A DNA stretch of 64,000 nucleotides. Origin: an uncultured Flavobacteriales bacterium (GTDB taxonomy: Bacteria > Bacteroidota > Bacteroidia > Flavobacteriales_G > NORP312). The DNA lies in NCBI GenBank assembly GCA_905480125.1, contig CAJQPE010000006.1:20045-84044 (forward strand), given 5' to 3'. Both the position numbers and the translations under genes were made by a program. This document shows, one piece after another, positions 4,662-64,000 of this stretch (position 1 is its first letter; every line of letters starts with the position of its first letter). The notes below the pieces were generated by a model, which saw only the letters and a list, made by a program, of their open reading frames with translations, made no database searches and was not told the origin of the DNA.

Positions 4662-5097
4662 CCATAACCTCCTCTGCTAAAGCTTCGATATCTATATCTT
4701 CACTCATCGCATTGGTGCGTTTGGATTTATTCCAAATCTCGATAACACCCCCACTGCCAACCACAGCAACTTCCTTAGCAATTTCTGCGCTTGAAGCTAA
4801 TGGCTTCGGCACTAAAAAGCGACCGACACCATCAAGAGAAACTGGAGTCGCACCGCCCATGACACGCCTAACAAAATCATCATTCTTCTTAATCAAGCGA
4901 TTCAATCTTCGAAGACCATGATTTAATTTCTCCCACTCGCCAATCGGATACACAACAAGACAATCAGCATGGAGGTTCCGATTCACTACAAAACCTTTTT
5001 CAGCCTCTGTACCTAGCTGCTTTTTTAAGCCAGCAGGAAACATGAATCGCCCTTTGCTATCAATCTTACAGTCGTATTCGCCCAGTAGGTTTATCAT
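4636..5097 (-). CDS. mraZ: Division/cell wall cluster transcriptional repressor MraZ
   Basis: 153 aa; LLGEYDCKIDSKGRFMFPAGLKKQL and second SpoVT/AbrB-like half VSLDGVGRFLVPKPL; first gene of the dcw cluster. Confidence 0.95.
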   Translation of the reverse strand: MINLLGEYDCKIDSKGRFMFPAGLKKQLGTEAEKGFVVNRNLHADCLVVYPIGEWEKLNHGLRRLNRLIKKNDDFVRRVMGGATPVSLDGVGRFLVPKPLASSAEIAKEVAVVGSGGVIEIWNKSKRTNAMSEDIDIEALAEEVMGDVSFGDE

Positions 5098-5130
5098 TCA
5101 CTAATAATTGAGGGTAAAAGTAGAAAGAAT

Positions 5131-5170
5131 ATGACACAATTTACCACTGTTTACCACTTTATACCACTTT
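5131..5170 (-). promoter_or_regulatory. Putative MraZ box: three 10-bp-spaced AAAGTGG-type direct repeats plus one degenerate copy
   Basis: Minus strand reads AAAGTGGTAT-AAAGTGGTAA-ACAGTGGTAA-ATTGTGTCAT, ending about 34 bp upstream of the mraZ ATG. Confidence 0.75.
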
Positions 5171-5356
5171 TGTTGAAAACTTTTTAACGAATGATGATTT
5201 TAAAGGTTTCAGAAAAACCAATAAAACGAGTGGCAGCAGGGAATTGATCGTTTAAATAAGCAATAGAAAAAAGTGGGAGTTATTAACTTCGTTTTAAACA
5301 TGTACCTGTTCAAAGTCAGTTCCCCTTAATGGGTGTTTTCATAATACTTTTTTAAC

Positions 5357-5364
5357 TAAATTTG
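5357..5364 (+). promoter_or_regulatory. Bacteroidota-type -7 promoter element TAAATTTG
   Basis: Matches TAnnTTTG, about 20 bp upstream of the ATG at 5385; no clear -33 TTTG seen. Confidence 0.4.
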
Positions 5365-5384
5365 GCGCACCTGTTAGTTAGTCA

Positions 5385-6146
5385 ATGGAATTAAAAATCA
5401 AAGAAGAAGGAGGGTTTAAATACTTAGAGAAGGGCACAGGACCAGTGATTGTCGTTCTTCATGGTTTGTTTGGTGCGCTAAGTAACTTCAAAGATGTTGT
5501 TGAACATTTCTGCTCAAGCTATACGGTTGTTATTCCGATGATGCCGATTTATGAGCTTCCAGTAATTAACACAAATGTTAAAAATTTAACCAAATTCATC
5601 CATGATTTTATTGAATTTAAAGGGTATGAAAAAGTGAACCTACTTGGTAATTCCTTAGGCGGTCATGTTGGTCTAGTATACACTACGAAGCACTTAAGTT
5701 CAGTAAACTCATTGACCCTTACAGGTAGTTCTGGATTATATGAAAATGCTATGGGCGGATCTTTCCCAAGAAGAGAAGATTACGATTATATTAAGGAGAA
5801 AGTTGGCCTAACATTTTTTGATCCAAAACATGCCACTAAAGAATTAGTTGATGAATGTTATGAAATTGTTAATGACAGAGCAAGTGCGTTGCGAACATTA
5901 GCTCTCGCTAAATCCGCAATAAGGCACAATGTAGCTAAAGATTTACCTGCGTTAAATATTCCAGTCTGCTTAATTTGGGGAAAAAATGACACAATTACTC
6001 CGCCTGAAGTAGCTGAAGAATTTAAAGAACTTCTGCCAAAAGCAGATTTATTTTGGATAGACGAATGTGGTCATGCACCGATGATGGAGCAGCCGCAGGA
6101 GTTCAATACTTTATATAGTACCTGGCTAAATAAACAACACCCTTAA
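5385..6146 (+). CDS. Alpha/beta fold hydrolase
   Basis: 253 aa; VVLHGLFG, nucleophile elbow GNSLGGH, IWGKNDTITP, ECGHAPMMEQP. Confidence 0.88.
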   Translation: MELKIKEEGGFKYLEKGTGPVIVVLHGLFGALSNFKDVVEHFCSSYTVVIPMMPIYELPVINTNVKNLTKFIHDFIEFKGYEKVNLLGNSLGGHVGLVYTTKHLSSVNSLTLTGSSGLYENAMGGSFPRREDYDYIKEKVGLTFFDPKHATKELVDECYEIVNDRASALRTLALAKSAIRHNVAKDLPALNIPVCLIWGKNDTITPPEVAEEFKELLPKADLFWIDECGHAPMMEQPQEFNTLYSTWLNKQHP

Positions 6147-6186
6147 TCCATTACTATCTTCTTGCCTTTTTATATAGGATGTTCAA

Positions 6187-6792
6187 ATGAAAATAACCAC
6201 CGCCACATTTCTAAAAAGCAGTGCAGAGGCTGACAAATGTCCAAAACCAGACAAACCCGAATACGCTTTTATAGGAAGGTCTAACGTTGGGAAATCTTCA
6301 TTAATCAACATGATGACCAACAAAAAGGCGTTGGCCAAAATTTCTAGCCGGCCTGGAAAAACGCAACTTATTAATCACTTTACGATTAATGAAAAATGGT
6401 TTATGGTTGACCTACCGGGATACGGTTTTGCGAAAGTCTCAAAAAAAGATAAAGACAAATGGGTTGGTTTCACAAACACCTATCTGCTGGGCAGAATAAA
6501 CTTAATGAGTCTATTTGTATTAATTGATTCAAGACACTCTCCACAAAAAATAGATTTAGAATTTATGGAGTGGTTAGCCGTTAACCAAATTTCATTTGCC
6601 ATTGTTTTTACAAAAATAGATAAGTTGACAGATAATAACTTCGGTAAAAATATGGAGGTTTATAAAACCCGTTTACTGCAAGACTGGGAAATATTACCTA
6701 AAACATTTTACACCTCTTCTTCTCACAGAATTGGAGCGGAAGAAATTCTAAACTATATTGAAGAAACTAACAGCTTGTTTCAACTACCTTAA
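6187..6792 (+). CDS. engB: Ribosome biogenesis GTP-binding protein YihA/YsxC (EngB)
   Basis: 201 aa; FIGRSNVGKSSLIN, RPGKTQLINHF, DLPGYGFAKVSK, VFTKIDKL. Confidence 0.95.
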   Translation: MKITTATFLKSSAEADKCPKPDKPEYAFIGRSNVGKSSLINMMTNKKALAKISSRPGKTQLINHFTINEKWFMVDLPGYGFAKVSKKDKDKWVGFTNTYLLGRINLMSLFVLIDSRHSPQKIDLEFMEWLAVNQISFAIVFTKIDKLTDNNFGKNMEVYKTRLLQDWEILPKTFYTSSSHRIGAEEILNYIEETNSLFQLP

Positions 6793-8583
6793 CAGGGTAA
6801 CATGACCATTGCGACTATAATCTTCACCCGAAACACCTGAAGCGGTTAGCACATAAAAATATGTTCCCGCAGCACATGGTTGCCCGCCAAACGTATAACC
6901 AGACCACTCGCCTTTGGAATGCGTAGTTTCAAATATTAACTCTCCCCATCTATTATATATCTGTAAATCATATTGATCAACACCTGCATTAGCGGCAACA
7001 AATACATCATTTAATCCATCACCATTAGGTGAGAATACGATTGGCAGAATAAGACCTTCATCAATAGTTACCTCATTGTAAACAGTATCTACACAACCGT
7101 TTTCATCAGAAGCTATCAACATAACCGTATAAGTGCCTATTTCATCATATTCATGCCTAGGATTTTGAGAAGATGAAATGTTTTCATCACCAAAATCCCA
7201 CTCCCAAGCGAAGGAAGAAGAGCTAGCATCAGTGAAATCAACGATATCGAGTTGAGGATTATTTACTGCCGAAGTAAATGCCGCTATGGGACCTTGAAAT
7301 ACATTAACAGAAATCGAATTAGATGGCAGAGAAACACATCCGTTTGGATATGTTTCAGTCGCATAAACTTCTCCTTCAATATTTCCCCAAATGATTTCCA
7401 TTTCATCTGTACCCTGCAATTGAGGATTTAATATGGCATCTGAAGCATTTACAAACCAATCAAAATTACCAGAATTCGAATTATTTGAAGTTAATGAATA
7501 GCTTGATGATTGAGAAGCACAAGCATCTGACAAACCCGATAAGATCGGTCCTTCAGGAGATTTTTTACCAAGAGCAAAAGGAAATTCACTAAAATTAATC
7601 CAATTAGAAATTGAAAGCGATTCAAAATTTCCAGTATTAGATGCTGTCGAGTTACCGGCCTTATTCCATAAGATTGCTTCAGGCGTACCCCAAATTCCTA
7701 TCGCATCAAAAGCACCATCAATTGCTTTATAAAACATAGTAAGGTTAATCGCAGAACTACCTGCTGTTCTGTGTATCTCATGATAATAGATAGGGTTAAT
7801 TTCACACATGGAATCTGATAAATTTAAAACATCGTAGCTATCTGTAGACGCTGAATTGTTTACAAGTCGCGCAGCAAATGCATTAACTCCTGGCACAGTT
7901 ATTTCAATCTCTATGGGTCTATATCTAAAGTTATTTAAAGATGATCCCAAGGGGAAGTAATACTTGCCGACTTGCTCGGTTTGCCACCACAATGAACCAG
8001 TGGATAAACTACTAACATACCCTGTGTCCAATGTGTTTATATTATTTGTCACCGCTGATGTGTCCGGATTTAATACATACATTGTAAAGCTATCGGTAGC
8101 TAATTCCCTATCATTGAGAGATAAATTTGAATTTATAAATACGTCAATTGTTTGAGTTTTTACTCCTGTACCTAATAATGTTAAATTATTAAAAATTGTT
8201 AATTGATCTCCAGTTATTAACTGATCAGACCCTGTTAATTCAATAGTACTTGCCTGAGCAATAAAAGTTCCATTATTGATCCAGTCACCTTCTAAATGTG
8301 TTACGCCACTCCCAATGTAAACGGCTGAATTACCTGCGTCATCAATTAATAAATCCCCATTGTTTATGCTATTGGATATGGTAACATCTCCATTATTGTC
8401 AAAAAAAGAAGTATTTACACCGAGGATACCGCTTCCATTAAGCTCAACATTACCATTTATTTGCATAATAGCTCCCGGCATAACAGAAACTGCAGCGTTA
8501 TTGTAAAATGTGACTTGCGCGAATAAACAAGTGCTAGCTGCACTGATGAATATAATAGAGATAAATTGCTTTAAAAACTGCAT
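6784..8583 (-). CDS. PKD domain protein with gliding-motility-associated (T9SS type B) C-terminal domain
   Basis: Signal peptide at MQFLKQFISIIFISAASTCLFAQ (internal ATG at 8583); PKD motif WEWDFGDENISSSQNPRHEYDEIGTYTVML; C-terminal FSPNGDGLNDVF...YNRWGELIFE...GTYFYVL. Confidence 0.9.
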   Translation of the reverse strand: MQFLKQFISIIFISAASTCLFAQVTFYNNAAVSVMPGAIMQINGNVELNGSGILGVNTSFFDNNGDVTISNSINNGDLLIDDAGNSAVYIGSGVTHLEGDWINNGTFIAQASTIELTGSDQLITGDQLTIFNNLTLLGTGVKTQTIDVFINSNLSLNDRELATDSFTMYVLNPDTSAVTNNINTLDTGYVSSLSTGSLWWQTEQVGKYYFPLGSSLNNFRYRPIEIEITVPGVNAFAARLVNNSASTDSYDVLNLSDSMCEINPIYYHEIHRTAGSSAINLTMFYKAIDGAFDAIGIWGTPEAILWNKAGNSTASNTGNFESLSISNWINFSEFPFALGKKSPEGPILSGLSDACASQSSSYSLTSNNSNSGNFDWFVNASDAILNPQLQGTDEMEIIWGNIEGEVYATETYPNGCVSLPSNSISVNVFQGPIAAFTSAVNNPQLDIVDFTDASSSSFAWEWDFGDENISSSQNPRHEYDEIGTYTVMLIASDENGCVDTVYNEVTIDEGLILPIVFSPNGDGLNDVFVAANAGVDQYDLQIYNRWGELIFETTHSKGEWSGYTFGGQPCAAGTYFYVLTASGVSGEDYSRNGHVTLLR

Positions 8584-8596
8584 TTTGTCAACGAAA

Positions 8597-8604
8597 CAAA
8601 TATA
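8597..8604 (-). promoter_or_regulatory. Bacteroidota-type -7 element TATATTTG
   Basis: Minus strand TATATTTG about 13 bp upstream of the ATG at 8583. Confidence 0.4.
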
Positions 8605-8646
8605 CGAAATTGACACAATTTAGTTTCGTTATTTATCGATCTGTAT

Positions 8647-8985
8647 TTAATCTGACACAGGCCCAACTAAGCCCATTTTTTCAGCAAAAGCCGTCCCAAA
8701 TTCTTTCATTTCTTTAGCCATATCGTTTTCATTTGTTGCTCTTTCAAAAGTATCAGCCATTGTCATTATCGACTGATGAAAGAATTTCTTCATGTCATCA
8801 ACAGTCATTTCTTTGGTCCACAAATCTATACGCAACGTATTATTTTCCTTTTCGTCCCAAAGCGAAACTAGCATAGCTTTACAAGAGCTTTCCTCTCCCA
8901 CATCTGATGCCGACCAATCTATTTTTTCTGGAACCTGATTCTCATCAAGCTTAACCTTAAAATTTATATCTGATGATTTACCCAT
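8647..8985 (-). CDS. gldC: Gliding motility protein GldC
   Basis: MGKSSDINFKVKLDENQVPEKIDWSASD; directly downstream of gldB; the ATG at 8985 is preferred over the longer ORF start at 9036. Confidence 0.9.
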   Translation of the reverse strand: MGKSSDINFKVKLDENQVPEKIDWSASDVGEESSCKAMLVSLWDEKENNTLRIDLWTKEMTVDDMKKFFHQSIMTMADTFERATNENDMAKEMKEFGTAFAEKMGLVGPVSD

Positions 8986-8986
8986 A

Positions 8987-10000
8987 TTATGATTTTGGTT
9001 TATATCCCGACTCACGAAGAATTGCTTGCGCATCATTCATTTCCATTAAATTTGCTAATGAAACTTTGGGATGTTTATTCATATAAGATCTTATTATTTG
9101 CCAGCCCAGCCATACGCCAGTTCGCGCTGGCGAAACTTTGTCGAAACCTCTCGTAAATGGACCTTCTCCAGTAAACTGAATAATGTCAGATTGATTCTTT
9201 GAAAACAACAACTTATTTTGGACTAAATGCGACCACAAACTAAATTCATAATGATCGCACCAAAGTAACTGCTCTGAGGAAAACCCAATTTTTATCGTAT
9301 CACTTTTTGCTGGATAAAAAGCGTCCATCAAGTACATGATTTTACCTTCATAAATCATTTTCGACAGCAAATCTTTTTCTTTACTTTCATTTGAAAATTC
9401 GCTGATCGACCAACCTTTTAGAGCATCAACGACTAAATGATCTTTTGTCATAATATTTGATTTATACTTAGGAACCCCTAGTGCTGGGTAATAATCACAG
9501 TTGGCGCCTAGATACATATCTAAGCCTAAACCCAAGGTACTATCCATTGCAATAATTGCATAATTAAACCCGGAGATAAAAGTTATAATCTTTGGAACAA
9601 TCTTTCTAGGAAAATGATAATTATAGTACTTGAAAGCGATTTTTAGTTCCCCTTCTATCTCTTTAGTTTCACTAAACTCGTCAAATGTTCTCTGGTGCAA
9701 CTCCCTAATGTTTGCATCCTCCAAAAACCCTACGAGATTACTCGCCACAACTTCAGGATTTGGACCCCCCGTATTAATTACTGAATTAACATATTGCTCA
9801 AAAAACAAACCATACTTACCGTGTAACTTTTCCACTTCTGGCAGCATATTTGAGCGGTTGGCCGCTTCTAGTTCTTTATCAAACCGATCAAAAGAAATAC
9901 TAACATCAATTTCTGAAACGTTAACATCAAGCCTATCGCTATCGCACGTAATTAATAACAATGAGATGAGGATAAATACGATTAACTTTAAAAAACGCAT
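8987..10000 (-). CDS. gldB: Gliding motility lipoprotein GldB
   Basis: 337 aa; lipobox-like LLLITCDS; GldB-type sequence SRFDKELEAAN-like N-terminus and IRSYMNKHPKVSLANLM; followed by gldC. Confidence 0.9.
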   Translation of the reverse strand: MRFLKLIVFILISLLLITCDSDRLDVNVSEIDVSISFDRFDKELEAANRSNMLPEVEKLHGKYGLFFEQYVNSVINTGGPNPEVVASNLVGFLEDANIRELHQRTFDEFSETKEIEGELKIAFKYYNYHFPRKIVPKIITFISGFNYAIIAMDSTLGLGLDMYLGANCDYYPALGVPKYKSNIMTKDHLVVDALKGWSISEFSNESKEKDLLSKMIYEGKIMYLMDAFYPAKSDTIKIGFSSEQLLWCDHYEFSLWSHLVQNKLLFSKNQSDIIQFTGEGPFTRGFDKVSPARTGVWLGWQIIRSYMNKHPKVSLANLMEMNDAQAILRESGYKPKS

Positions 10001-17127: not shown

Positions 17128-18186
17128 ATGAGCAAAAAAAAAATATTTATTAGCCCATTAGATTGGGGACTTGGTCACGCGACAAGATGCGTGCCTATAA
17201 TTAAAATTCTAAGAGACTTAAACTGTGACGTAATTATCGGTTCTGATGGCCCTCAATTAGACCTATTGCGGAAGGAATTCCCAACGGTTCCTTACCTTAA
17301 ATTTCCTGGATACAAAATTGACTACCCAAAAAATGGTGGCATGACTTGGCATATGATTAAATCGTTCAGAAAACTTGTGGGAAAAATCATGATTGAGAAC
17401 CAATACATAGGTGAAATAAACGAAATGCATAAGCTAGACGGCATTATTTCAGATAATAGATACGGGTTGTATAACACTGAAATACCAAGCGCCTTCATCA
17501 CACACCAATTGAACATTCAAGCACCTATTGGCCAGTTTCTGCTTAAACAGATTAACAACAAATTCATCAACAAACACAATGAATGTTGGGTGCCAGACAT
17601 TCAGGGCAAGGGAAACTTAAGTGGAAAATTATCGCAAAAGAATCCACCAGAAAACGTAAAATATATTGGTCCAATTTCGCGATTAGATCCTTACAGCATT
17701 AGTAAGAAAAAATACGAAGTACTTGTTATTATTTCTGGTCCAGAACCTCAACGAACTCTATTCCAAAATTTGATTATTCCGCAGCTAAAGCAACTCAACA
17801 AATCTGCAATGGTCGTTCTAGGGCAACCGGATAAAACCATTAACAAAACAGAAGGTAATATTGAAATTCGTTCTCATTTAGATTCCAAGCAAATGGCGGA
17901 AGCGATTAATGCTGCAGACGTTATCGTGTCCCGCCCAGGATACTCAACTATAATGGATTTATCGCAATTTGAAAAGAAAGCCATGTTTATACCAACACCT
18001 GGACAAACAGAGCAGGAATACCTTGCAAAATACCACCGAGGGAAAGGACATACTTCCTGGCAAAAACAAAAAGATTTAAACCTGAAAAGTGGATTGGAAA
18101 TGGCTGGAAATTATAAAGGAATTCCGCAGGTTAATAAAACAAACACTTTGGAACAAACCATAAGAGCATTTGTTAATTCTTTATAA
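17128..18186 (+). CDS. Glycosyltransferase (GT28/MurG-like fold)
   Basis: KKIFISPLDWGLGHATRCVPIIKIL; ADVIVSRPGYSTIMDLSQFEKKAMFIPTPGQTEQEYLA. Start at MSKKKIFIS (17128) or 17110. Confidence 0.8.
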   Translation: MSKKKIFISPLDWGLGHATRCVPIIKILRDLNCDVIIGSDGPQLDLLRKEFPTVPYLKFPGYKIDYPKNGGMTWHMIKSFRKLVGKIMIENQYIGEINEMHKLDGIISDNRYGLYNTEIPSAFITHQLNIQAPIGQFLLKQINNKFINKHNECWVPDIQGKGNLSGKLSQKNPPENVKYIGPISRLDPYSISKKKYEVLVIISGPEPQRTLFQNLIIPQLKQLNKSAMVVLGQPDKTINKTEGNIEIRSHLDSKQMAEAINAADVIVSRPGYSTIMDLSQFEKKAMFIPTPGQTEQEYLAKYHRGKGHTSWQKQKDLNLKSGLEMAGNYKGIPQVNKTNTLEQTIRAFVNSL

Positions 18187-19131
18187 CTCTAAATGCGGGA
18201 GAATTTCTTTTACTAAAAGAACCTCTTTAGCTATCACCTCCTTGAAATTTTGATATTCTGTTGAATCTTCGTTGAATGGCCGATGCGCAATAGAACTTCT
18301 AAGTTTATCCATGCGTAACATTAAGTCTAAGCACGATTCATCAATTGCGAAATTTTTGAACTTCTCCCAGATATAATTTACTGCCTGCTTATTAGGATGC
18401 AACATATCTTCTTTATAGAAACGATAATCACGTAAATCGTCTAACATGATTTCATAAGCAGGAAAGTAATTTAAATTGTCATATTGCTCAACCAACGACT
18501 GTATCGCGAGATGAAGTAACGACTTACTTCTTTGGTTTTCGATAACCCCATCTTTCCAATGGCGAATTGGGCTAATCGTGAAGATAAATTGAACGCTCGA
18601 AGTTGAACGCTCAAAGTTTTTTATTAATTGTTTAAACTTCTTCTCAATCTCATCAATTGACAAAAGTCTTTTTCGAAATTGTGTATTAGGTACTTTATGG
18701 CAATTAGCAACCAAATTATCTGTTTCTATATGTTCGTATACCCAAGCTGAACCGAACGTGATTATCAAACAGCTCACTTGTTCCACAAAATCAGCAGAAC
18801 TATTCAATACTTCATTGTGCTTTTTTAGACACTCCTCTTTAGTTAACCCAGCTAAATCGCCATGAGTTTCGAAACAAAACCAACGGCCTTGATTAAAATG
18901 AATATCCTTTTCTTCGAATAATCTTTTATCCAAACAGCGTTGTAATAAATTAGCAATCGAAATAGGATTGAATACAACGCCAAAAGGATTGGATATAGAA
19001 TTAAAACCAAAGTAACGAAACTTCGTCCCTATATTTTCGGAAAAGCATGACCCAATCAGCAGCACGTTATCTTCAAAAAACAATTGTTGTTTAAGTGTAT
19101 TTGGGATTACCTCCGTTCTAAATTCTGGCAT
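18181..19131 (-). CDS. GSCFA domain-containing protein
   Basis: 316 aa; LLIGSCFSENIGTKF, TFGSAWVYEH, TISPIRHWKDGV, LHPNKQAVNYIWEKF. Confidence 0.9.
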   Translation of the reverse strand: MPEFRTEVIPNTLKQQLFFEDNVLLIGSCFSENIGTKFRYFGFNSISNPFGVVFNPISIANLLQRCLDKRLFEEKDIHFNQGRWFCFETHGDLAGLTKEECLKKHNEVLNSSADFVEQVSCLIITFGSAWVYEHIETDNLVANCHKVPNTQFRKRLLSIDEIEKKFKQLIKNFERSTSSVQFIFTISPIRHWKDGVIENQRSKSLLHLAIQSLVEQYDNLNYFPAYEIMLDDLRDYRFYKEDMLHPNKQAVNYIWEKFKNFAIDESCLDLMLRMDKLRSSIAHRPFNEDSTEYQNFKEVIAKEVLLVKEILPHLEL

Positions 19132-23523: not shown

Positions 23524-26500
23524 ATGAAACAGATCTTATTATTACTATTTATTTTAGTGGGTTTTAGTTGCTTAGCGCAAACACCAGAAGGAATCAACTA
23601 TCAAGCTATTGCCAGAGATAATAGTGGTGCAGAATACGTAAATACTACTCTTTCAGTTAAGTTTAGCATCAGCTCTGATGCTATAGGCGCAACAATTATT
23701 TTCACCGAAACGCACAACACTGTAGCTACGAATGATTTTGGTTTGTTCAATTTAGTTTTAGGAAATGTAAGCACTGCTGATTTTACCAATATTGACTGGA
23801 GCAACGCACCTCTTTATTTAATTGTTGAAGCCGATTTTGGGTCTGGATTTGAGCAAATGGGTAATCCCACTCCTATTGTAGCTGTACCATACGCATTATA
23901 TGCAAAAAATGTAGAAAATATTGATGATGCAGATGCAGACTCAACCAATGAGATACAAGTATTAAGTATTTCAAATGACACCATCTTTTTATCGAACGGT
24001 GGGTTTGTTCAACTGCCAGCATCAGCAAGTAGCTTATGGAATACAAATGCACAAGGAATTGATTATAGCTTAGGTAATGTTGGTATTGGAGTTTCTAACC
24101 CAGTTGTAGAGTTGGATGTCGCAGGAGAAACACAATCTAACGATGTTAGAGTCTTAAATGATTTTTACTATAACAATAATCCAGATTCTAATTATGTGTT
24201 AATGGATGATGGTGCTGGTACCGGGCATGCTATATGGCAACATCCAGATTCTTTAGGTATATCTGGTGGTGCCTTTGTTTCAAATGGAACAGAAACAGTT
24301 CTAAATAACATTGGGGATAATGTGGGGATAGGTACAAATAATCCAAATGGAGCATTACAAGTTAATGGTGTAATATCTGCTCAAAATTATGGTATTGCTG
24401 CAAAAGTTAAAGTTAAAAATGCCGGGGGTTCAGAAGGTGCTGAAACTTCTATTGGTGCTGCAACAATTATAGGTTCATATAATTTTGATGCTTGGGACCC
24501 TAGTTTTGGAGCATACAGAAGTTCTAGTAAGATAATAGGAACTACAACTACAGCTCATGGTCCTGGAGATACTCCAAGTAGAATGAGGTTTTTAACCACC
24601 CCCCAAGGAAGTACTGCCGCTGTTGAACGTTTAACCATAAATGATGATGGTAACGTAGGTATAGGAACCTCCACCCCTAATGCAAAGCTTGAAGTTTCGG
24701 AAGATATTATTGTTAATCAAATTACTATTGGTAAAGGTAGTGGAAGCATCACTAGCAACACTGCGAACGGATATCAAGCCCTTTCCATCAACACCACGGG
24801 GCAATGGAACACTGCGAACGGACATCTAGCCCTTTCCTCTAACACCTCAGGGTATTCAAACACTGCCCTTGGTAATGAAGCCCTTTCCGCGAATAGTACG
24901 GGGATATGGAACACCGCGGTTGGTGATTATGCCCTTGGGGGCAACGACACTGGAGAGAGAAATACCGCGGTTGGAGAATACGCACTTCAGGCCAGCAATG
25001 GAAATAACAACACCGCGCTTGGGCACCAGGCCCTTGTAGCTAACACTTCTGGAGATGCTAATATTGCCCTTGGGAATTACGCCTTAAATAACAATCTTTT
25101 GGGAATTAACAACACTTCTGTTGGGTTTGAGGCAGGGTATAGTGCCGCAGGCAGTAATAACCTATTTTTAGGTTACCGAGCGGGGTATAACGAAACCGGA
25201 AGTAATAAATTATATATAGAATCTGATAGTTCTTCTACTCCATTAATTTATGGTGAATTTGATAATGATATACTTAGAGTAAATGGCACATTACAAGTTG
25301 GGGATCCAACTGGTTCAGGCTATGCACTACCTACTATCGATGGTTTAAACGGTGACGTATTAACAACAGACGCTTCTGGCAACGTAACTTGGCAGCCTCC
25401 TAGCGGAGGAGGTATTGATGCAGACGGAGATCTTTGGCCTGCAGGAATGGATGCTGATGATTCAGACTTTAACGTTAAATTTCCAAGTCAAATTAATGAC
25501 TTAAACAACGATACAAAAATTCAGTTGGAAGAATCGGCTAATGAAAACATTATTCGATTTGATCTTGCAGGTACTGAAAAATGGGCAATGCACGGCAGCC
25601 GTTTAGAACCCATGAATACCGGACATTCTTTATTTATTGGACAAGGTGCTGGAGCCAATGATGACCTAACAAATAGATATAATGTACTCATTGGCGATAG
25701 TGCTGGGTATAATAATGTGATTGGTGCAGTAAACACTGCTATTGGATCGCGTTCTTTGTACGAGAACATAAATGGAGCATATAATACTGCAACTGGATTT
25801 CGCTCACTTAGTCATAATACAGAAAGTAATAATACTGCACATGGCGCTGTTTCTTTATATAAAAATATCGATGGTTTCGAGAATACCGTACAAGGTGTTG
25901 CTGCAATGTTTGAAAACACAAGTGGCAGCCAAAACACTGCTATGGGTTATTACTCTTTGTATAATAATACAAGTGGTACTAATAACACTGCTATTGGTTA
26001 CCAAGCCGGAATAAGTTCTATAGGAAATTTTAACATCTACTTAGGCTATCAAGCAGGGTATAACGAAACCGGAAGTAATAAATTATATATAGAATCTGAT
26101 AGTTCTTCTGCTCCATTAATTTATGGTGAATTTGATAATGATATACTTAGAGTTAATGGAACAGTTCAGATAAACGACCCCACCCAGACGGGTTACGTTT
26201 TACCACCTTTACGTGGTACAGCTGGACAAGTTCTCGAAACTGATGGTTTGGGAAATACCTCCTGGCAAACGCCTACGGCTGCCCCCGCCTCTTGGGAGCT
26301 TTCTGGTAATGCTGGAACCTCTACTGGAACCGATTTTATTGGCACCACAGATGCGCAGGATTTGGATATTCGAACAAACGATATTATTCACCATCGATTT
26401 ACCCAAAAAGGGCAGTTGGAGTTTCTAAACACAGGAAACTCAGTTTTTATTGGCAAAAATGCAGGTGCTAATGATGATTTAACAAACCATGAAAACGTAT

Positions 26501-27531
26501 ATATTGGGGGATTTGCGGGAAATGGAAATACAACTGGATACTCCAATGTTGCTGTTGGATTTGAAGCACTTAGAGATGTTTCGGGTCAATATGCTAACGT
26601 TGCTGTTGGATACCGGGCTCTTGCACTTACAACGAGCGGATCACAAAATGTTGCTGTGGGTACATTTGCCATTGAAAAAGGTACTGGAAGTCATAATTCT
26701 GCTTTTGGACATGGCGTGCTTAATAACAATACCAGCGGCTCACAAAACACTATAGTTGGGCATCAAGCTATGGGTAGTAACGAAGATGGGAGTTCTAACT
26801 CTGCGCTGGGGGCAGATGCTCTAAGCCAAAACATAACAGGTGAGAGTAATGTTGCTGTTGGATATGAAGCCGGTAATGCGAATATCTCCGGGAATAACAA
26901 CATTTTTATCGGGCGAGGTAGTAATGCGTCAGCTGGTAATTTAACTAATGCCAGCGCTATTGGATTCAACGTAACGGTGAGTGCAAGTAATAGCATGGTA
27001 TTAGGTAACGGAGTTAACGTAGGGATTGGGACATCTAATCCAACGGAAAAATTAGAAGTTATTGGTAACGTTACTGCAAACAGCTACCAATATAACAGCA
27101 CGCAAACGCGTGTATTTCATATAAATCCAGCAACATTAAGTCACCACTCTAGCGGAGCAACGGTTGATGGGAACAACTGGGGGGGAATTAAATTTACCGC
27201 AACATTAACAAACCGAGAAGAACTCTATTGCCCACTCCATCTGCCAGATGGAGCTGTTGTTACGGCTATAGATGTTACAGTTATTGATAATTCTCCGGGA
27301 TATTTTGTAGCATGGTTAGTACAATATCAACCTAACACTGGTCAAATCATGCAAACAACTACTCAATCAGTTAACTCAGCAGTGGAGCAAGTTATTTCAT
27401 CATCCGGCACTTCAACTATAGACAATAGTGCTAAGAGTTATATGATAGCCATCCGTGCTGAACCTGGTCTGACAAACGACGCTCATATTCAAGACATTCA
27501 AGTTACCTATACCGTAAATGAAGCTCGATAA
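23524..27531 (+). CDS. Large secreted repeat protein with trimeric-autotransporter-head/tail-fibre-like repeats
   Basis: 1335 aa; signal peptide FSCLAQ; Bacteroidota N-terminal domain PEGINYQAIARDNSG; four NVGIGxxxPxxxLxV motifs; three arrays of ~16-17-aa NTAxGxxALxxNTxG units; unrelated beta-rich C-terminus. Confidence 0.88.
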   Translation: MKQILLLLFILVGFSCLAQTPEGINYQAIARDNSGAEYVNTTLSVKFSISSDAIGATIIFTETHNTVATNDFGLFNLVLGNVSTADFTNIDWSNAPLYLIVEADFGSGFEQMGNPTPIVAVPYALYAKNVENIDDADADSTNEIQVLSISNDTIFLSNGGFVQLPASASSLWNTNAQGIDYSLGNVGIGVSNPVVELDVAGETQSNDVRVLNDFYYNNNPDSNYVLMDDGAGTGHAIWQHPDSLGISGGAFVSNGTETVLNNIGDNVGIGTNNPNGALQVNGVISAQNYGIAAKVKVKNAGGSEGAETSIGAATIIGSYNFDAWDPSFGAYRSSSKIIGTTTTAHGPGDTPSRMRFLTTPQGSTAAVERLTINDDGNVGIGTSTPNAKLEVSEDIIVNQITIGKGSGSITSNTANGYQALSINTTGQWNTANGHLALSSNTSGYSNTALGNEALSANSTGIWNTAVGDYALGGNDTGERNTAVGEYALQASNGNNNTALGHQALVANTSGDANIALGNYALNNNLLGINNTSVGFEAGYSAAGSNNLFLGYRAGYNETGSNKLYIESDSSSTPLIYGEFDNDILRVNGTLQVGDPTGSGYALPTIDGLNGDVLTTDASGNVTWQPPSGGGIDADGDLWPAGMDADDSDFNVKFPSQINDLNNDTKIQLEESANENIIRFDLAGTEKWAMHGSRLEPMNTGHSLFIGQGAGANDDLTNRYNVLIGDSAGYNNVIGAVNTAIGSRSLYENINGAYNTATGFRSLSHNTESNNTAHGAVSLYKNIDGFENTVQGVAAMFENTSGSQNTAMGYYSLYNNTSGTNNTAIGYQAGISSIGNFNIYLGYQAGYNETGSNKLYIESDSSSAPLIYGEFDNDILRVNGTVQINDPTQTGYVLPPLRGTAGQVLETDGLGNTSWQTPTAAPASWELSGNAGTSTGTDFIGTTDAQDLDIRTNDIIHHRFTQKGQLEFLNTGNSVFIGKNAGANDDLTNHENVYIGGFAGNGNTTGYSNVAVGFEALRDVSGQYANVAVGYRALALTTSGSQNVAVGTFAIEKGTGSHNSAFGHGVLNNNTSGSQNTIVGHQAMGSNEDGSSNSALGADALSQNITGESNVAVGYEAGNANISGNNNIFIGRGSNASAGNLTNASAIGFNVTVSASNSMVLGNGVNVGIGTSNPTEKLEVIGNVTANSYQYNSTQTRVFHINPATLSHHSSGATVDGNNWGGIKFTATLTNREELYCPLHLPDGAVVTAIDVTVIDNSPGYFVAWLVQYQPNTGQIMQTTTQSVNSAVEQVISSSGTSTIDNSAKSYMIAIRAEPGLTNDAHIQDIQVTYTVNEAR
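24757..25158 (+). repeat. Tandem 51/48-bp coding repeats (NTA[V/L/N]G..AL..NT.G)
   Basis: Eight consecutive units starting aacactgcgaacgg / aacactgccctt / aacaccgcggtt / aataccgcggtt / aacaccgcgctt etc.; unit lengths 51 or 48 nt. Confidence 0.85.
25183..25280 (+). repeat. 98-bp near-identical direct repeat, copy 1
   Basis: gggtataacgaaaccggaagtaataaattatatatagaatctgatagttcttct[a]ctcc...cttagagt; one mismatch to the copy 873 bp downstream. Confidence 0.9.
26056..26153 (+). repeat. 98-bp near-identical direct repeat, copy 2
   Basis: Same sequence as 25183-25280 apart from one substitution. Confidence 0.9.
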
Positions 27532-27542
27532 TCCATAAACAT

Positions 27543-28292
27543 CTGTTAATCAAAGAACTAGTCCTACATATCATTTTTTGTCTGTTAGCTTACTTTAGCT
27601 TATCCCAAAACACTCTATCACCAACTGTTGTAGCAAGTGCTGGCAACGAAGCTGCCGGTGGGGCAAGTGGTAATTCGTTTCAATATACTTTGGGTGAGAC
27701 TTTTGTTACCACACAAATAGGCACTGCAAACTCTTTTACGCAAGGGTTTCATCAGTCGTTCAATTCTGTAGTTCAAGTTATACCTTTAAAAATTGTGTTT
27801 AGCACACAAGATGCAAGCTGCACATCTTTATCTGATGGATTTATTGGTGTTGACACATTAACTGGCTGCACTCCTAGCTATATAATAACATTAAACGGCG
27901 AAGAAACGGATAGTCTTCATTTCACAAACTTAGAAGCTGGCAGCTACGATTTTTCTGTTTCAACTGATGATGGCTGCTTATTTGACACAACCATTACACT
28001 AATTAACCTTGGCGAAAATTGCGGTTTAACCTTTTACAACGCAATTTCCCCAAATGGAAATGGCCAAAATGATACATGGGTGATTAACTTGATTGAGGCG
28101 AATCCTGATAATTCGGTGCAGATTTTCAATCGCTGGGGTTCATTAGTTTGGAATGCAAATGGATATGATAATACAAACATCGTTTGGGCAGGAAATTCAA
28201 ACGCTGGCAATCCCCTGCCCGATGGAACTTACTATTATGTTGTAACAGCCAGTGAAGAAAACCATACTGGGTTTGTAGAAATAACACGTTAA
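27543..28292 (+). CDS. Secreted protein with gliding-motility-associated (T9SS type B) C-terminal domain; non-ATG start
   Basis: Reading frame open from 27522; translation LLIKELVLHIIFCLLAYFSLSQNTLSPTVVASAGNEAAGGASGNSFQYTLGETF... gives a signal peptide upstream of the track's ATG at 27690; C-terminus FYNAISPNGNGQNDTWVI...IFNRWGSLVW...GTYYYVV. Confidence 0.75.
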   Translation: MLIKELVLHIIFCLLAYFSLSQNTLSPTVVASAGNEAAGGASGNSFQYTLGETFVTTQIGTANSFTQGFHQSFNSVVQVIPLKIVFSTQDASCTSLSDGFIGVDTLTGCTPSYIITLNGEETDSLHFTNLEAGSYDFSVSTDDGCLFDTTITLINLGENCGLTFYNAISPNGNGQNDTWVINLIEANPDNSVQIFNRWGSLVWNANGYDNTNIVWAGNSNAGNPLPDGTYYYVVTASEENHTGFVEITR

Positions 28293-28293
28293 T

Positions 28294-29208
28294 TTGAAAA
28301 AAGTACTTATCATATTATGCCTGCTTGTCTCTGTTGTTTCCTTCGCTCAACAAGATTTTCAGAACAGTCAGTACATGTTCAATCTATTTTCAATAAACCC
28401 TGCCTATGCAGGAAGTAATGATGTATTGTCTGTTAACGTTTCACACAGAAGTCAATTTGTTGGTTTCGAAGGTGCACCTAACACGCAACAGTTTTCAATT
28501 CACGCACCAGTAACGAAGAAGAAAATTGGCTTAGGCCTAGAGATTACCAACGATGTTATTGGCCCTAGAAAAGTACTGGGTGTGCATACTGCTTATGCTT
28601 ACCGAGTAAAAATTGGACCCGGTCAGCTTGGTTTTGGATTAAAAGCCGGCATTTATAATTACACGTACAATTGGGATATCCTCAATTACCAAGACAATAC
28701 AGAAGACTTAATAGGAACAGGAACGGAATCAAAACTAGTACCAAACTTCAATTTTGGAATGTACTATCACGATAGAATTAATTACGCAGGTATTGAATTA
28801 GCTCATCTAAATAGCCCCAGTATCTACAGTAATGATAGCATTACCGATGTTCAAGCAAAACTATCTTCCCATGTCTCTGCCTTTGCTGGAAGAGCTTTCG
28901 AACTGAATAACAAATTGGTACTAAAACCCTCTTTCTTAGTTCGATTTGCCAAAAACGCACCTGGATATGCCGATGTAAATGTTAGCGTTTTATATAACAG
29001 AAGGTTTTGGTTAGGTGCTTCATATAGAACAAATAAAGCCCTAATTTTTATAGCGCAAGTTTACATCAACCCTAAGCTAAAGCTTGGTTATTCTTATGAC
29101 CTTTTATTAAACAAATTATCAACATATCAGGCGGGATCTCACGAATTATATCTAGGGTTTGATATAGATTTCAATAAATCAACTGCATTATCGCCAAGAT
29201 ATTTTTAA
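28294..29208 (+). CDS. PorP/SprF family type IX secretion system membrane protein (TTG start)
   Basis: 304 aa; signal peptide VVSFAQQDFQNSQYMFNLFSINPAYAGSNDVLSVNVSHRSQFVGFEGAPNTQQFSIHAPV. Confidence 0.93.
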   Translation: MKKVLIILCLLVSVVSFAQQDFQNSQYMFNLFSINPAYAGSNDVLSVNVSHRSQFVGFEGAPNTQQFSIHAPVTKKKIGLGLEITNDVIGPRKVLGVHTAYAYRVKIGPGQLGFGLKAGIYNYTYNWDILNYQDNTEDLIGTGTESKLVPNFNFGMYYHDRINYAGIELAHLNSPSIYSNDSITDVQAKLSSHVSAFAGRAFELNNKLVLKPSFLVRFAKNAPGYADVNVSVLYNRRFWLGASYRTNKALIFIAQVYINPKLKLGYSYDLLLNKLSTYQAGSHELYLGFDIDFNKSTALSPRYF

Positions 29209-32200
29209 ATGATGAGGGGGGCTAGTTTTTGTTTATTATTTCTTGCTTTTTTAACTGCCGTTGGACAGCAAAAAAAAGGAGACAAGCTCTTCGAAAAAAA
29301 ACTATACCAAAAAGCCGCAGAAGCATATATTGAAGAAATTGAAACAAACCCCAGTAACATTGCTGTATACCAGAACCTGGGAGAAACCTATGCTGCACTC
29401 CGAGACTATCCTAAAGCGGAAGAAGCCTATAAAAAAGCTCTGAATTCTGATAAATTAGGAAATGAAAAATACATTAACTACGCATTTTCCCTAATTAAAA
29501 TGGGGAGATACAATAATGCTAAACAGCAATTTAAACAATATAACTCAATAGTTAACGATAGCTTACAACATAACGAATATGTAGAATTGTGTGATTCGCT
29601 AATGGCTTGGAGCACTAGAAATCAAAAATATTCCATAAAAACAATTACTGGTATAAATACTTCGGGGTCAGAATTTGCGCCAACTCCTCATAAAAAAGGC
29701 ATACTCTATGCCGCCAATGGCAAAACAGATTGGGTAAACTATGTTTCGGATAAAGCTACCCGAAATAACTACCTAGATATTCACCTAGCAATAAAAGGAG
29801 CTGACAACTGGACTTTTTCCGAACAAGATTTACTTTCTCCTCGCCTTTCCACTACTCTACATGATGGCCCGGCAACCATAGATAATAGCGAACAAAAAAT
29901 ATATTTTACACGGTTATTCCGAACACCAAAAAAAGAAGTACTGCACATTTTTGTTGCCGAAATGAATGCCGATAAAATTCAAAAGACACAACCTTTTGAG
30001 CATAATTCAAATGAATATTCAGTCATTCATCCAGCATTTAGTGATAATAACCAACTACTATTTTTTGCAAGTAACCAACCTACCGTGAACAAAGGTGGTT
30101 TTGATATTTACTACTGCCAAAAAAAAACAGATGGAAGCTGGGCAAATCCCAAACCAATAGAAGGAGCAGTTAATTCTATTGGAAATGAACTTTTTCCGTA
30201 TTACAGTAATGGGGTACTCTACTTTTCATCGGATGGGCATTATGGATATGGTGGATTAGATCTATTTTCTTCAAAATCAGCTGACAACTATGACATTGTT
30301 ACCAACTTACACGCGCCAATTAACTCGCACGATGATGATTTTTCTATCATGTTCATAGATGATGAAAAAGGATATTTTGCATCTGACCGACCAGGAGGAA
30401 AAGGATTAGATGACATATACGGATTTGAAGCAATTGCTAGCCTAGAAAAACAACAACTGAAAACCATTTCGGGGGTATTTGAATTCAATAAACTTCCACA
30501 GGCTGGAGCTTTAATTGCCCTTTATGATGAAAATGGAGTGGAAATTATGCGATTGATTACTAACGAAAATGGATTTTATAGCTTCTCAAACCTGGAACCT
30601 GACAAGTCATATTCTATTAGGCCTATTGAAGATAATGATTATGGCGAAATTTATATTATAGATGAAGATAAGAAAAAAGTAATGTTACTTGACAAAAACG
30701 CAAGCTTCCATTTTGAGAATCTTAGCTCGGAACGAGAAAACGGCATCACGTTCATCGAAATTAACGATCCTACAATTGTTGCCAAAAAGATAAGTGGGTA
30801 TGTTTTTAAGAAAGTTAAAGGTGATTATGGAACGAGTTTAGCTGTATTCGTTTATGATGAATTGGGAAATATAATTGCCAAAACCAATACCGATAAAAAT
30901 GGTGTCTTTAGCTTCGAAACATTAAACCGAGAGCAACAATACATTGTAAAAATTGACGAGAGTGATGTTGAACTGCAAATAGAAATTGAAAGTATTTCTA
31001 AAGCTGTTAATGAAGATTTAGTTAGCATGAATGGGGTCTTCGTGCACAACAAATTACCATTGGCAGGAGAAGCAATGGCGCTTTTTAATGAAGAAGGAGT
31101 CGAAATGTTCCGGACAACCACAGATAAAAATGGTCGATTTAAATTCAGAAGTATAGCACCAGATAATAAATATAGCATTCACCCTATCAACGATATTGAA
31201 GATAGTGACCTTTTTATGACCAATGAAATTGGTCATAAAACACATTTATTGATGAAGTCTGCAGTATTCCGTTTTACAACGTTAAAATCGCAAAATATTA
31301 ACGGAATGCAATCTATAATCATAAATGATCCCGAAATGATTGCCAACCCTATCAAAGGCTATATTTATAGAACTATGAAAGGAGATTACAACGGCCAAAT
31401 GAACATCATTGTATATGATGATGCCGGAAATCTAGTTACCAGCACTACAACAAATAAACAAGGTGAATTTAATTTTGAATCGCTTGGCAAGCGAATTACT
31501 TACTTAATCCAAATTGATGAAAGTGATGGCGACTTGGTTATGGAAATAAACGGAATGCAAAAACTGGTAGAATACGGATTCACCATGCTATCTCCAGAAG
31601 AAATAGCTGAAATTATTCCAATTGATCTTGAAGACGGCTCTTTTATCTCTAAACCTTTTGGCGGATATGTTTTTCAAAAAATAAAAGGGGATTACTCCGG
31701 TCGCACTGAAATACTGGCATATGATGATCAAGGAAAAATAATCGCTAGAACCTACACAGATGAAAATGGAAATTTCACCTTCCAAAATCTTCCACCTCAA
31801 AACACTTACCTGTTTAAAGTTTTATTAGAAGATACTGATATACAATTAGGGTTTATAGATACAGAAACGCAGGAAGTTTCTCAAGTAGCTATGAATAAAA
31901 ACGGGGAATTTAATTATAAACGATTAACTAATATGCAAGAGACAATAGACATAATAAATGAAAAGGGGGTTGTTATTAAAGTCAAAAATAATGAGTTGTT
32001 TTCCAATTCTAAAATTTATTATGATTACGATAAATCGTCTTTATCCAGTCAAGCAAAAACTGAACTAGATAAACTAGTCACCATTAGTCAACAAAACCCA
32101 CATATTCTTTTTGCCCTTGGTTCGCATACAGATTCACAAGGTGAGGAACGCTACAATCTACTGTTATCTGAAAGAAGAGCAAAATCTGCGTTAGATTACC

Positions 32201-32364
32201 TCTTACAAAAAGGAGTTCAAAAATCGCAGATAAGTTTTATTGGATATGGTGAAAGTGACCCAATAATTGATGATGAAAAAATTGGTTCACTAAGCTCTGC
32301 ACTAGAGAAAGAAGCTGCACATGCTAAAAACCGCAGAACAGATATAAAAATTACTGTCAAATAA
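29209..32364 (+). CDS. OmpA family protein with TPR, PD40/WD40-like propeller and carboxypeptidase-regulatory-like repeats
   Basis: 1051 aa; TPR N-terminus; PD40 stretches (LLFFASNQPTVNKGGFDIYYCQ, LYFSSDGHYGYGGLDLF); repeats TxTDxNGxFxFxxL; C-terminal OmpA FALGSHTDSQGEERYNLLLSERRAKSALDYL. Confidence 0.92.
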   Translation: MMRGASFCLLFLAFLTAVGQQKKGDKLFEKKLYQKAAEAYIEEIETNPSNIAVYQNLGETYAALRDYPKAEEAYKKALNSDKLGNEKYINYAFSLIKMGRYNNAKQQFKQYNSIVNDSLQHNEYVELCDSLMAWSTRNQKYSIKTITGINTSGSEFAPTPHKKGILYAANGKTDWVNYVSDKATRNNYLDIHLAIKGADNWTFSEQDLLSPRLSTTLHDGPATIDNSEQKIYFTRLFRTPKKEVLHIFVAEMNADKIQKTQPFEHNSNEYSVIHPAFSDNNQLLFFASNQPTVNKGGFDIYYCQKKTDGSWANPKPIEGAVNSIGNELFPYYSNGVLYFSSDGHYGYGGLDLFSSKSADNYDIVTNLHAPINSHDDDFSIMFIDDEKGYFASDRPGGKGLDDIYGFEAIASLEKQQLKTISGVFEFNKLPQAGALIALYDENGVEIMRLITNENGFYSFSNLEPDKSYSIRPIEDNDYGEIYIIDEDKKKVMLLDKNASFHFENLSSERENGITFIEINDPTIVAKKISGYVFKKVKGDYGTSLAVFVYDELGNIIAKTNTDKNGVFSFETLNREQQYIVKIDESDVELQIEIESISKAVNEDLVSMNGVFVHNKLPLAGEAMALFNEEGVEMFRTTTDKNGRFKFRSIAPDNKYSIHPINDIEDSDLFMTNEIGHKTHLLMKSAVFRFTTLKSQNINGMQSIIINDPEMIANPIKGYIYRTMKGDYNGQMNIIVYDDAGNLVTSTTTNKQGEFNFESLGKRITYLIQIDESDGDLVMEINGMQKLVEYGFTMLSPEEIAEIIPIDLEDGSFISKPFGGYVFQKIKGDYSGRTEILAYDDQGKIIARTYTDENGNFTFQNLPPQNTYLFKVLLEDTDIQLGFIDTETQEVSQVAMNKNGEFNYKRLTNMQETIDIINEKGVVIKVKNNELFSNSKIYYDYDKSSLSSQAKTELDKLVTISQQNPHILFALGSHTDSQGEERYNLLLSERRAKSALDYLLQKGVQKSQISFIGYGESDPIIDDEKIGSLSSALEKEAAHAKNRRTDIKITVK

Positions 32365-43878: not shown

Positions 43879-44790
43879 TTAATCTGCAAAACTTATTTTT
43901 CCACTAGATAAAAATTGCTGGTCTGATATTAAGTGATAAAAATAGGTGCCCGTCAAGTTTAATGAATTAGTAATTTCAAAATAATCACTGCTTGTCTGGT
44001 AACTATAAACAGTCTGACCCAAGGCATTAAATATTATTAACTCTGATTGAACGCCATTAGTTCTTTCAAATTTAAAATTACCGCTCCGTACTATTGGATG
44101 CGGATAAATGGAAATATAATATTCATGAAGTGGTTCGCTTCCTATTTCACTGAACAGAGAACATTCATTATTAAAATAACTTTGGTCGTTATCTTTTTCA
44201 TATATCTTCAAACAAGGGCACATATTATAATCATCATGCATATAATTTAATCCATAATTTGTTCCAATACCTTCAATAAATGTAAGTTTTTGATTTCCTC
44301 CTGGTAAAACATAATTTGTTCTCACATGCTTTCTTCCAGATACATCATAAACGGAATCAACAATTGCAACAGTGCTATCACCAAAAGACTTATATATGAT
44401 GAAAGTTTCATTAATATTCAATGATAAATCCATTATTAAGAATTCAATAGTATCCAATCCTTCAAAAGTTTCAATTGTTCCTAAAAACCAGGCTTTTCCA
44501 CTCCGCGTATCTTCCTTGGACAAGCCATTACTTCTATCAACAGTAGTGGCCATACTATAATCAATTGAATTATTTATAACCGTGCCTGCTTTTTTATAGG
44601 GAATTCCGCTAACCACAGTGTCTTGTATTATTATTTGCTCTCTTGTAACCCTTTGGTCTAAATTACAGAAATGGGTTGTCCATTTAGTAGAGTCGTTACC
44701 ATATATCGAGCTATAAGATTGAGCTACTGAAGTTAATGGGGCTAGGCTTAGTAGAAAAATAGAAGGTATTAATATATTTTTTGTTTTCAT
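43879..44790 (-). CDS. Secreted protein with T9SS type A sorting domain
   Basis: 303 aa; signal peptide; C-terminus YISIYPHPIVRSGNFKF...LIIFNALGQTVYSYQ...LNLTGTYFYHLIS...GKISFAD. Confidence 0.85.
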   Translation of the reverse strand: MKTKNILIPSIFLLSLAPLTSVAQSYSSIYGNDSTKWTTHFCNLDQRVTREQIIIQDTVVSGIPYKKAGTVINNSIDYSMATTVDRSNGLSKEDTRSGKAWFLGTIETFEGLDTIEFLIMDLSLNINETFIIYKSFGDSTVAIVDSVYDVSGRKHVRTNYVLPGGNQKLTFIEGIGTNYGLNYMHDDYNMCPCLKIYEKDNDQSYFNNECSLFSEIGSEPLHEYYISIYPHPIVRSGNFKFERTNGVQSELIIFNALGQTVYSYQTSSDYFEITNSLNLTGTYFYHLISDQQFLSSGKISFAD

Positions 44791-63200: not shown

Positions 63201-64000
63201 CCACTGCTTAATGTTGAGTCATAAACTATTTGTGCATTAGCATGTTTCCCATCGAGAATTGCCTGATTCCGTATAAGCTTGATGCCCCATAAATCTTCAA
63301 AATTAATATCTACATTATTTGAAGGTGGCCAAACTTTTTCTTGATCACTTTGAGAAGTTCCCAAATACCTAGCTGGCTCAGTAACGGCTAACGGAATTTC
63401 ATATTCGTAATAGTTTTGGTCAAAATCTGTACCTAAACGGACAAATAGTTTCAAATCTCCATCTTCTAATGTGCCATCCTGCAAAAGTTCTGCGTGAGAA
63501 AACATACGCAAACGCTTATAACGCCTTAGGTCCATCTCGATATTCTTATAAGCAGAATAGGCACTGCCGTCTTCAAGGTTACATACCTCAAGAGTCATCG
63601 ATTGTTCGTTAGCTCTAGTCTGCTGTTGGGCACCATAAGTAAGCTCCCTTAAAATCCCAGGCGGTAAAATATAATTAACAGGTGTTTTTTCAGAATTTTC
63701 TTCAATATTCAAGGCGCCAATATTAAAATCTTGAGCAGATTCTTCATTTAGTTCTTCACCACCTGAATAAATTGTTTCGGTATACTTTCTCCATTGTCCT
63801 CGAGTTAATTGGAGCTGAGCAAACCGAAGATAAACTGGTTTATCGAATCCAGTCATATACATACGTATAAAACGCATAGAACGAAAGTCTGAAATACCAC
63901 CAACGGCTTTCTCAAATTCGGCCATTGGTATTTTGAATTGATACCATTTAACTGATCTCTCCCCATCAGAAGTTGTTGCCTTAGCTTCTAAAATATTATT
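60263..64000 (-). CDS. sprA: Cell surface protein SprA, T9SS outer-membrane translocon (5' end beyond window)
   Basis: >1220 aa; frame stays open past the track's ATG to the window edge (...ILEAKATTSDGERSVKWYQFKIPMAEFEKAVGG); ATIWVNELRLTEFDDNGGWAAIGRVSANFADLANISASGS; C-terminal barrel ending FGVSILFTLAG; next to gcvH-vanZ. Confidence 0.93.
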   Translation of the reverse strand, partial: NNILEAKATTSDGERSVKWYQFKIPMAEFEKAVGGISDFRSMRFIRMYMTGFDKPVYLRFAQLQLTRGQWRKYTETIYSGGEELNEESAQDFNIGALNIEENSEKTPVNYILPPGILRELTYGAQQQTRANEQSMTLEVCNLEDGSAYSAYKNIEMDLRRYKRLRMFSHAELLQDGTLEDGDLKLFVRLGTDFDQNYYEYEIPLAVTEPARYLGTSQSDQEKVWPPSNNVDINFEDLWGIKLIRNQAILDGKHANAQIVYDSTLSSGAQIYISGNPNLAEVTTIMIGVRNPNRQSNPDPDDGLPKCATIWVNELRLTEFDDNGGWAAIGRVSANFADLANISASGSIRTKGFGTVEQKVNERQKETLKTLDVSSTIQLGKFIPEKIGIRLPMYVGFSVIESTPEFSPLAEDVPTSLYENAVTSGLPKADALFAKQELRKITRDITTRKSLNFTNIRKEKAKGSDRKTRFYDISNWTGTYAYTEENHHNFELEQDLIKNYRGGLNYNFNASPKNIKPFNKVKFLRKSKYLRIIKDFNFYPGPKQIGFRTDVNRMYNERVIRNVNPGIRADIDPFYNKNFNWSRSYSFKYDLSKALKLDFTAGANSLIEEDAQNIREINRNSDNAIVQQDYENFKDSVMTSVFSGGENLDYRHNTNINYTIPFSKFPLTNWINSTARYSTSYIWTREAFAAKGFGNTIQNSQTYNLNATFNVVTLYNKVGYLKKVNNKFRKSSRTNSRSSKSAKGKKEEDKEKKKKDKNKKNQKTPLDYAARTLMSIRNVNGTYSRNRGTLLPGYNGETSVLGMDDFGAPGYGFLFGQQDDWGNSDTNHYAHWAMMNDWLKKNDSINTQFSRTFSENLSIRASVEPIKDLRIELTANMTNSLNKTEYYRYQGDSGVYANQWLTESPTEMGSYSSSIITIQTAFIDGFGSNNSAIFDQFLQNRVTISQRLDDMDGISSNDGLPHENDSLGQGYRQGYGATSKEVLVPAFLAAYTGTSPENVSLDPAAVGYKNSKYLPIPNWSIRYNGLSKIKFLKKYVRKISLNHSYKSSYSVSGYSTNLDYDRDRDRMDVEQMLDQSANYESKLVLNTITISEKFSPLINVDMTFQNSFQGKFEIRKDRTLSLNIANTQITEQKGMEYVLGMGYIIDKVKLPFQLREGTDVISPLKLRADLSYRRNETIIRKVIEESQQTTSGQDIISIKVTGDYNLSKALRLRAFADYGMNIPKTSTTFKRWDLNFGVSILFTLAG

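Follow-up and report, generated by a model that had tools for sequence, protein, structure and literature searches.

The window analysed here, a stretch of 64,000 nucleotides from a contig of an uncultured Flavobacteriales bacterium, carries four same-strand genes in a row, encoding a fibre protein, a small protein with a C-terminal T9SS sorting domain (CTD), a PorP/SprF-like protein and an OmpA protein; this arrangement, as put forward in the original prediction, was reproduced in all its coordinates (Table 1).

Table 1. Genes and domains of the fibre locus (positions in the window)
Feature	Position	Strand	Remarks
CTD-less MAT-like fibre protein, 1335 aa	23524..27531	+	Bdello_MAT_N E 7e-7, below cut-off; no CTD
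Fibre base domain (fibN / MAT N-terminal domain), directly after the signal peptide	23581..23913	+	
Three blocks of ~17-residue NTAxGxxAL repeats, 14 by pattern	24751..26838	+	
Fibre C-terminal tip, non-S74; an S74 chaperone takes its place in the sister species	27094..27528	+	
Candidate adaptor: signal peptide, QGF domain, Ig-like domain, type B CTD; start codon uncertain	27543..28292	+	
QGF domain (SxGG...TLGET...TQGFHQ)	27609..27764	+	Outside Pfam and NCBIfam families
T9SS type B sorting domain of the small protein	28029..28280	+	Pfam and NCBIfam
PorP/SprF-like outer-membrane barrel; TTG start; C-tail SPRYF, without Cys-X-Cys	28294..29208	+	
PorE/SprD-like protein: TPR, PD40, CarboxypepD and OmpA peptidoglycan-binding domain	29209..32364	+	Pfam and NCBIfam

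The product of the first gene had been described as a giant repeat protein with a signal peptide and no CTD. The signal peptide and the length are confirmed, and a cryptic CTD was sought with Pfam, NCBIfam and custom CTD models without any being found. The repeats are real, NTAxGxxAL and VGIGT motifs alike following the signal peptide, but the protein is more than an anonymous repeat protein, as it has a MAT-like base domain and belongs to fibres with swappable tips. Its first domain matches the NCBIfam model Bdello_MAT_N (NF053851), as do all 16 of the 16 diverse relatives scanned (best E 1.8e-11), with scores of 28-32 bits that lie below the curated NCBIfam cut-off of 60 bits. Residues 302-441 resemble the solved structures of the MAT Bd1334 (8ON4/8OML, entry codes given in PMC10769870; E 0.002-0.005), and this similarity, together with the S74 chaperone of the sister fibre, suggests that the shaft may be a trimeric beta-helix or prism. 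An AlphaFold model of the base domain is beta-rich, and a PDB search with it gave no confident match. A phage origin of the base domain was considered and dropped, with no match among 50,697 phage records.

The locus is intact in a sister species from the same genus, where identities are 97% for the PorP-like protein, 95% for the OmpA protein, 90% for the small protein and 95% for the fibre base domain. The sister fibre ends in an S74 chaperone (PF13884), and the tip of the window fibre is absent there, so that the two species have one base with exchanged tips. A constant base bearing S74 and non-S74 tips is the hallmark of MATs (PMC10769870), and the window and sister fibres show the same variability. 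The likeness to Bdellovibrio MATs comprises a probable counterpart of their base domain behind the signal peptide, a repeat shaft and swappable S74 or non-S74 tips; the differences are the sub-threshold NCBIfam score and a T9SS CTD partner, none having been described for MATs.

The assignment of a type B (gliding-associated) CTD to the small protein holds under both PF13585 (CHU_C; E 1e-25, 90 bits) and TIGR04131 (E 1.5e-15, 57 bits against a cut-off of 35 bits). With this domain at its C-terminus and a signal peptide read from the sequence, the protein qualifies as a T9SS type B substrate. Its N-terminus is formed by a new domain of about 50 residues, here named QGF (consensus SxGG...[ST]xG[EQ]...LTQGFQQ), for which no family was found in Pfam or NCBIfam. 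AlphaFold models the CTD and the Ig-like domain well, and QGF at pLDDT below 50 from an alignment with only two QGF-bearing rows; PDB relatives of either fibN or QGF were sought, and none was convincing. The 5' end of the gene contains no ATG, GTG or TTG, the possible starts being CTG at 27543 or ATC at 27549, and the sister-species orthologue likewise has no standard start there (L098 5863-5868), so that non-standard initiation at one of these codons or coupling to the fibre gene is possible.

The PorP/SprF-like identity of the third product stands on a full-length TIGR03519 match (E 6e-81, 272 bits against a cut-off of 90.55). This protein ends in NKSTALSPRYF, and a Cys-X-Cys motif, which links SprF to the gliding track (PMC12635249), is absent from all 26 QGF-linked PorP tails in which it was sought; the analogy with SprB as a gliding adhesin was accordingly rejected. 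The TPR, PD40 and OmpA domains expected in the fourth product are all found, and CarboxypepD repeats as well, which makes up the full set of four PorE domain types. Its nearest NCBIfam models, CHU_0125 and PorE, both score below cut-off (PorE 272 bits against 600), and it is therefore treated as a PorE-like paralogue rather than filed as PorE. A PorP lacking Cys-X-Cys beside a PorE-like gene indicates that display is probably static.

Fjoh_3952-3951-3950 and PG1035-PorP-PorE of P. gingivalis show the same succession of a type B CTD protein, a PorP-like barrel and a TPR/PD40/OmpA protein, and in the latter the type B CTD protein forms a complex with the other two (PMC9143113). What sets the present locus apart is its substrate, a short QGF protein whose role appears to be to carry another protein and not to act as the effector itself. 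With the gliding adhesin SprB and its partner SprF the locus shares a type B CTD with a dedicated PorP/SprF partner, and it differs in the PorP tail, in the PorE-like gene and in the CTD-less fibre, which again points to static display.

On the same contig, 28 kb downstream, a sprA/sov gene (TIGR04189, 1073 bits; window 60263-64000, minus strand) indicates that the genome possesses a T9SS. The minus strand of the window encodes two further T9SS substrates: at 6784-8616 a PKD protein whose CTD is of type B, and at 43879-44790 a protein of 303 aa whose CTD is of type A.

Type B substrate-PorP-PorE operons are common (PMC9143113, PMC12618676), and the genome as a whole contains 18 PorP and 37 CHU_C matches, which would suit a reading in which the locus consists of four independent surface genes, an ordinary operon of this kind having come to lie behind a fibre gene by chance. 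The distribution of the genes makes this highly improbable. The same genome holds a second type B locus on contig C103, which starts inside the fibre gene, and a type A QGF-fibre pair on contig C32; these extra copies prompted a systematic test of the pairing, and together with the recurrence of the gene pair across the phylum they place the arrangement far beyond chance. Both domains occur together in 66 of the 119 genomes scanned in the class, the fibre domain by itself in three and QGF by itself in none, which leaves 50 genomes with neither (p 2e-30); T9SS presence alone cannot explain this co-occurrence, since SprA is found in 114 of the 119. The 42 genomes of the order contain 87 QGF genes, and for 74 of these a fibre base domain is encoded on the same strand no more than 6 kb away, where chance would give 0.64; the QGF gene is mostly the adjacent one, 440-602 bp upstream. 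The link is specific to QGF-bearing proteins, as only 2 of 82 type B CTD proteins without QGF are found near a fibre, and it extends through the phylum: the base domain is present in all 22 QGF-positive genomes among the 148 scanned. At fibre loci from other classes of the phylum, 16 of 20 adjoin a secreted CTD protein of about 170-190 aa with a recognisable or diverged QGF, a count made by eye on loci picked mostly for the QGF model missing them or scoring weakly, with the HMM itself matching only some. Chance juxtaposition is contradicted by this co-occurrence already.

Pairing is thus observed directly, and it is not without exceptions. An adjacent fibre is missing for about six of the 26 QGF genes of type B and for several of type A, and a few fibres have no visible partner, although every QGF-positive genome scanned at the class and phylum levels has a fibre somewhere. 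Distances among QGF domains correlate with those among fibN domains more closely than family relatedness would give (0.33, a value that 0 of 1000 within-family shuffles reached, their maximum being 0.31); restricted to one family the correlation is not significant, and co-duplication of linked neighbour genes could contribute to it. A fusion of QGF and fibN was looked for as Rosetta-stone evidence, and no ORF has both domains. The longer QGF proteins combine QGF with other domains and a CTD. On a plasmid of the cultured Aureispira anguillae the pair occurs bare, annotated as "T9SS type A sorting domain-containing protein" and "hypothetical protein". This QGF-CTD A and fibre pair (L306 6452-8842) has a recombinase gene as its neighbour, a sign that the two genes may move together as a unit. 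A fibre and QGF protein pair from Aureispira is WP_264793647.1 and WP_264793648.1.

The composition of the loci was compared in 86 QGF proteins and 87 fibres taken from 91 annotated loci. As these had been chosen for a QGF or fibre match, the fractions describe such modules and not genomes at large: a T9SS sorting domain stands at the C-terminus of 83 of the 86 QGF proteins (type A in 57, type B in 26) and of none of the 87 fibres; the cryptic CTD that the original prediction had named as a possible objection was not found in any of them. A PorP gene follows 25 of the 26 type B QGF genes and none of the 54 type A genes not at a contig edge; CTD type is exchanged together with PorP, and the majority of pairs are of type A and have no PorP. 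The conserved unit is therefore the two-gene pair of QGF-CTD protein and fibre, with the PorP and OmpA proteins present only with a type B CTD. Conservation of the gene order in Bacteroidota, which the original prediction had proposed to check, accordingly applies to the pair, which recurs phylum-wide, and to PorP and OmpA in the type B version only. Likewise, the concern that homologues of the repeat protein might mostly lack the neighbouring genes is justified for PorP and OmpA, whereas the CTD protein is almost always adjacent.

A small partner beside a fibre also recalls phage fibre-assembly genes, and a single adaptor can serve several fibres, up to five in tandem with a common base domain at L103. 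Both would fit a QGF protein that is needed for fibre trimerisation, as a capping subunit or as a chaperone in the periplasm or at the surface, and that has no part in export or anchoring. That 83 of 86 carry a sorting domain argues against such a role, as does the persistence of the QGF protein beside S74 fibres, which bring their own chaperone, and we regard it as improbable.

The reading that we prefer, and hold to be probable on these comparative grounds, among them the tip swap of the sister species and the one adaptor for tandem fibres with a shared base at L103, is that QGF-CTD proteins are adaptors that give a T9SS signal and an anchor in trans to CTD-less trimeric fibres. The cell would then use the locus to present on its surface an adhesive, MAT-like fibre trimer, with the N-terminal base at the cell and the C-terminus as the distal tip, which in relatives is an S74 chaperone that is normally cut off. 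T9SS signals are C-terminal (PMC10994853, PMC12618676), and a sorting domain that has to be C-terminal would end up at the wrong end of such a fibre. The fibre would thus be unable to carry one, and the small QGF-CTD protein would supply it in trans. It may bind the fibre either at the surface or while still in the periplasm, most likely through the base domain; the T9SS would recognise the QGF-CTD protein, which would hold the fibre at the surface. In the type B version the CTD would dock on the adjacent PorP barrel, in keeping with the need of type B substrates for a cognate adjacent PorP/SprF (PMC12618676), and the OmpA protein would tie that barrel to the cell wall, giving static display. 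The commoner type A version would use the PorV/PorU route instead. The earlier proposal, in which the small CTD protein serves to anchor or co-export the fibre, is well backed by the comparative evidence, and the self-contained four-gene unit in which it was framed gives way to a two-gene core.

Co-export and anchoring need not go together. The fibre might instead cross the outer membrane by a separate route and only then bind a QGF-CTD protein that the T9SS has placed at the surface. Bdellovibrio is not known to have a T9SS. Its MAT fibres reach the surface, no secretion route being named for them (PMC10769870), and the gene pairing fits anchoring alone equally well. In Flavobacterium, however, secreted reporters without a CTD stay inside, unexported (PMC10994853, PMC12618676), and with the models used no other exporter gene recurs at the loci, which leaves anchoring alone a rather unlikely account.

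The adaptor reading also bears on MATs themselves, since the study of the Bdellovibrio fibres infers that their N-domain sits at the cell, bound to a surface element that it does not identify (PMC10769870). We lean, if not strongly, towards a phylum-wide two-component T9SS route, in which a dedicated small adaptor supplies in trans the signal for secretion and anchoring to tip-swapping trimeric fibres unable to bear it at their own C-terminus; in Bacteroidota, QGF would then be the surface partner so far missing for MAT-type base domains. Two-partner secretion and trimeric autotransporters resemble such a route in joining a long fibrous adhesin to a dedicated outer-membrane partner, and differ in the transporter and in the signal, which here is a T9SS CTD borne by a separate small protein. 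No earlier description of the QGF-fibre pairing was found in open-licence PubMed Central papers. If the reading is correct, large fibre families that mostly have no Pfam hits and are annotated as hypothetical would join the T9SS surface repertoire; as T9SS cargo is defined by its own CTD, secretome predictions based on that domain would miss proteins carried by adaptors. It would also offer a concrete candidate, open to testing in Bacteroidota, for the surface element that binds the MAT base domain, and would explain the free swapping of tips on such fibres.

Some loci depart from the common plan. Some fibres in QGF clusters, those of type B included, have another N-terminal domain (SAMLDVxSxxxGxLxPRMTxxQR or others; L087, L093, L095 and L206), so that fibN may not be the binding site, and QGF may, to judge from these sequences, recognise more than one base type. 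Three of the type B loci without an adjacent fibre (L088, L089 and L090) contain QGF-CTD B, PorP and OmpA genes with a PorX-like response regulator beside or close to them, separated from the QGF cluster by a helicase gene in L088; this neighbour may connect T9SS regulation with the adaptor. Two tandem QGF domains occur in a type A protein of 1017 aa (L151 3331-6384). At L146, two QGF proteins (4972-9714 and 17239-18270) end in NLNGQVKYAGSANDRDPILV..., which is neither a type A nor a type B CTD and may represent a third type of domain for sorting or anchoring.
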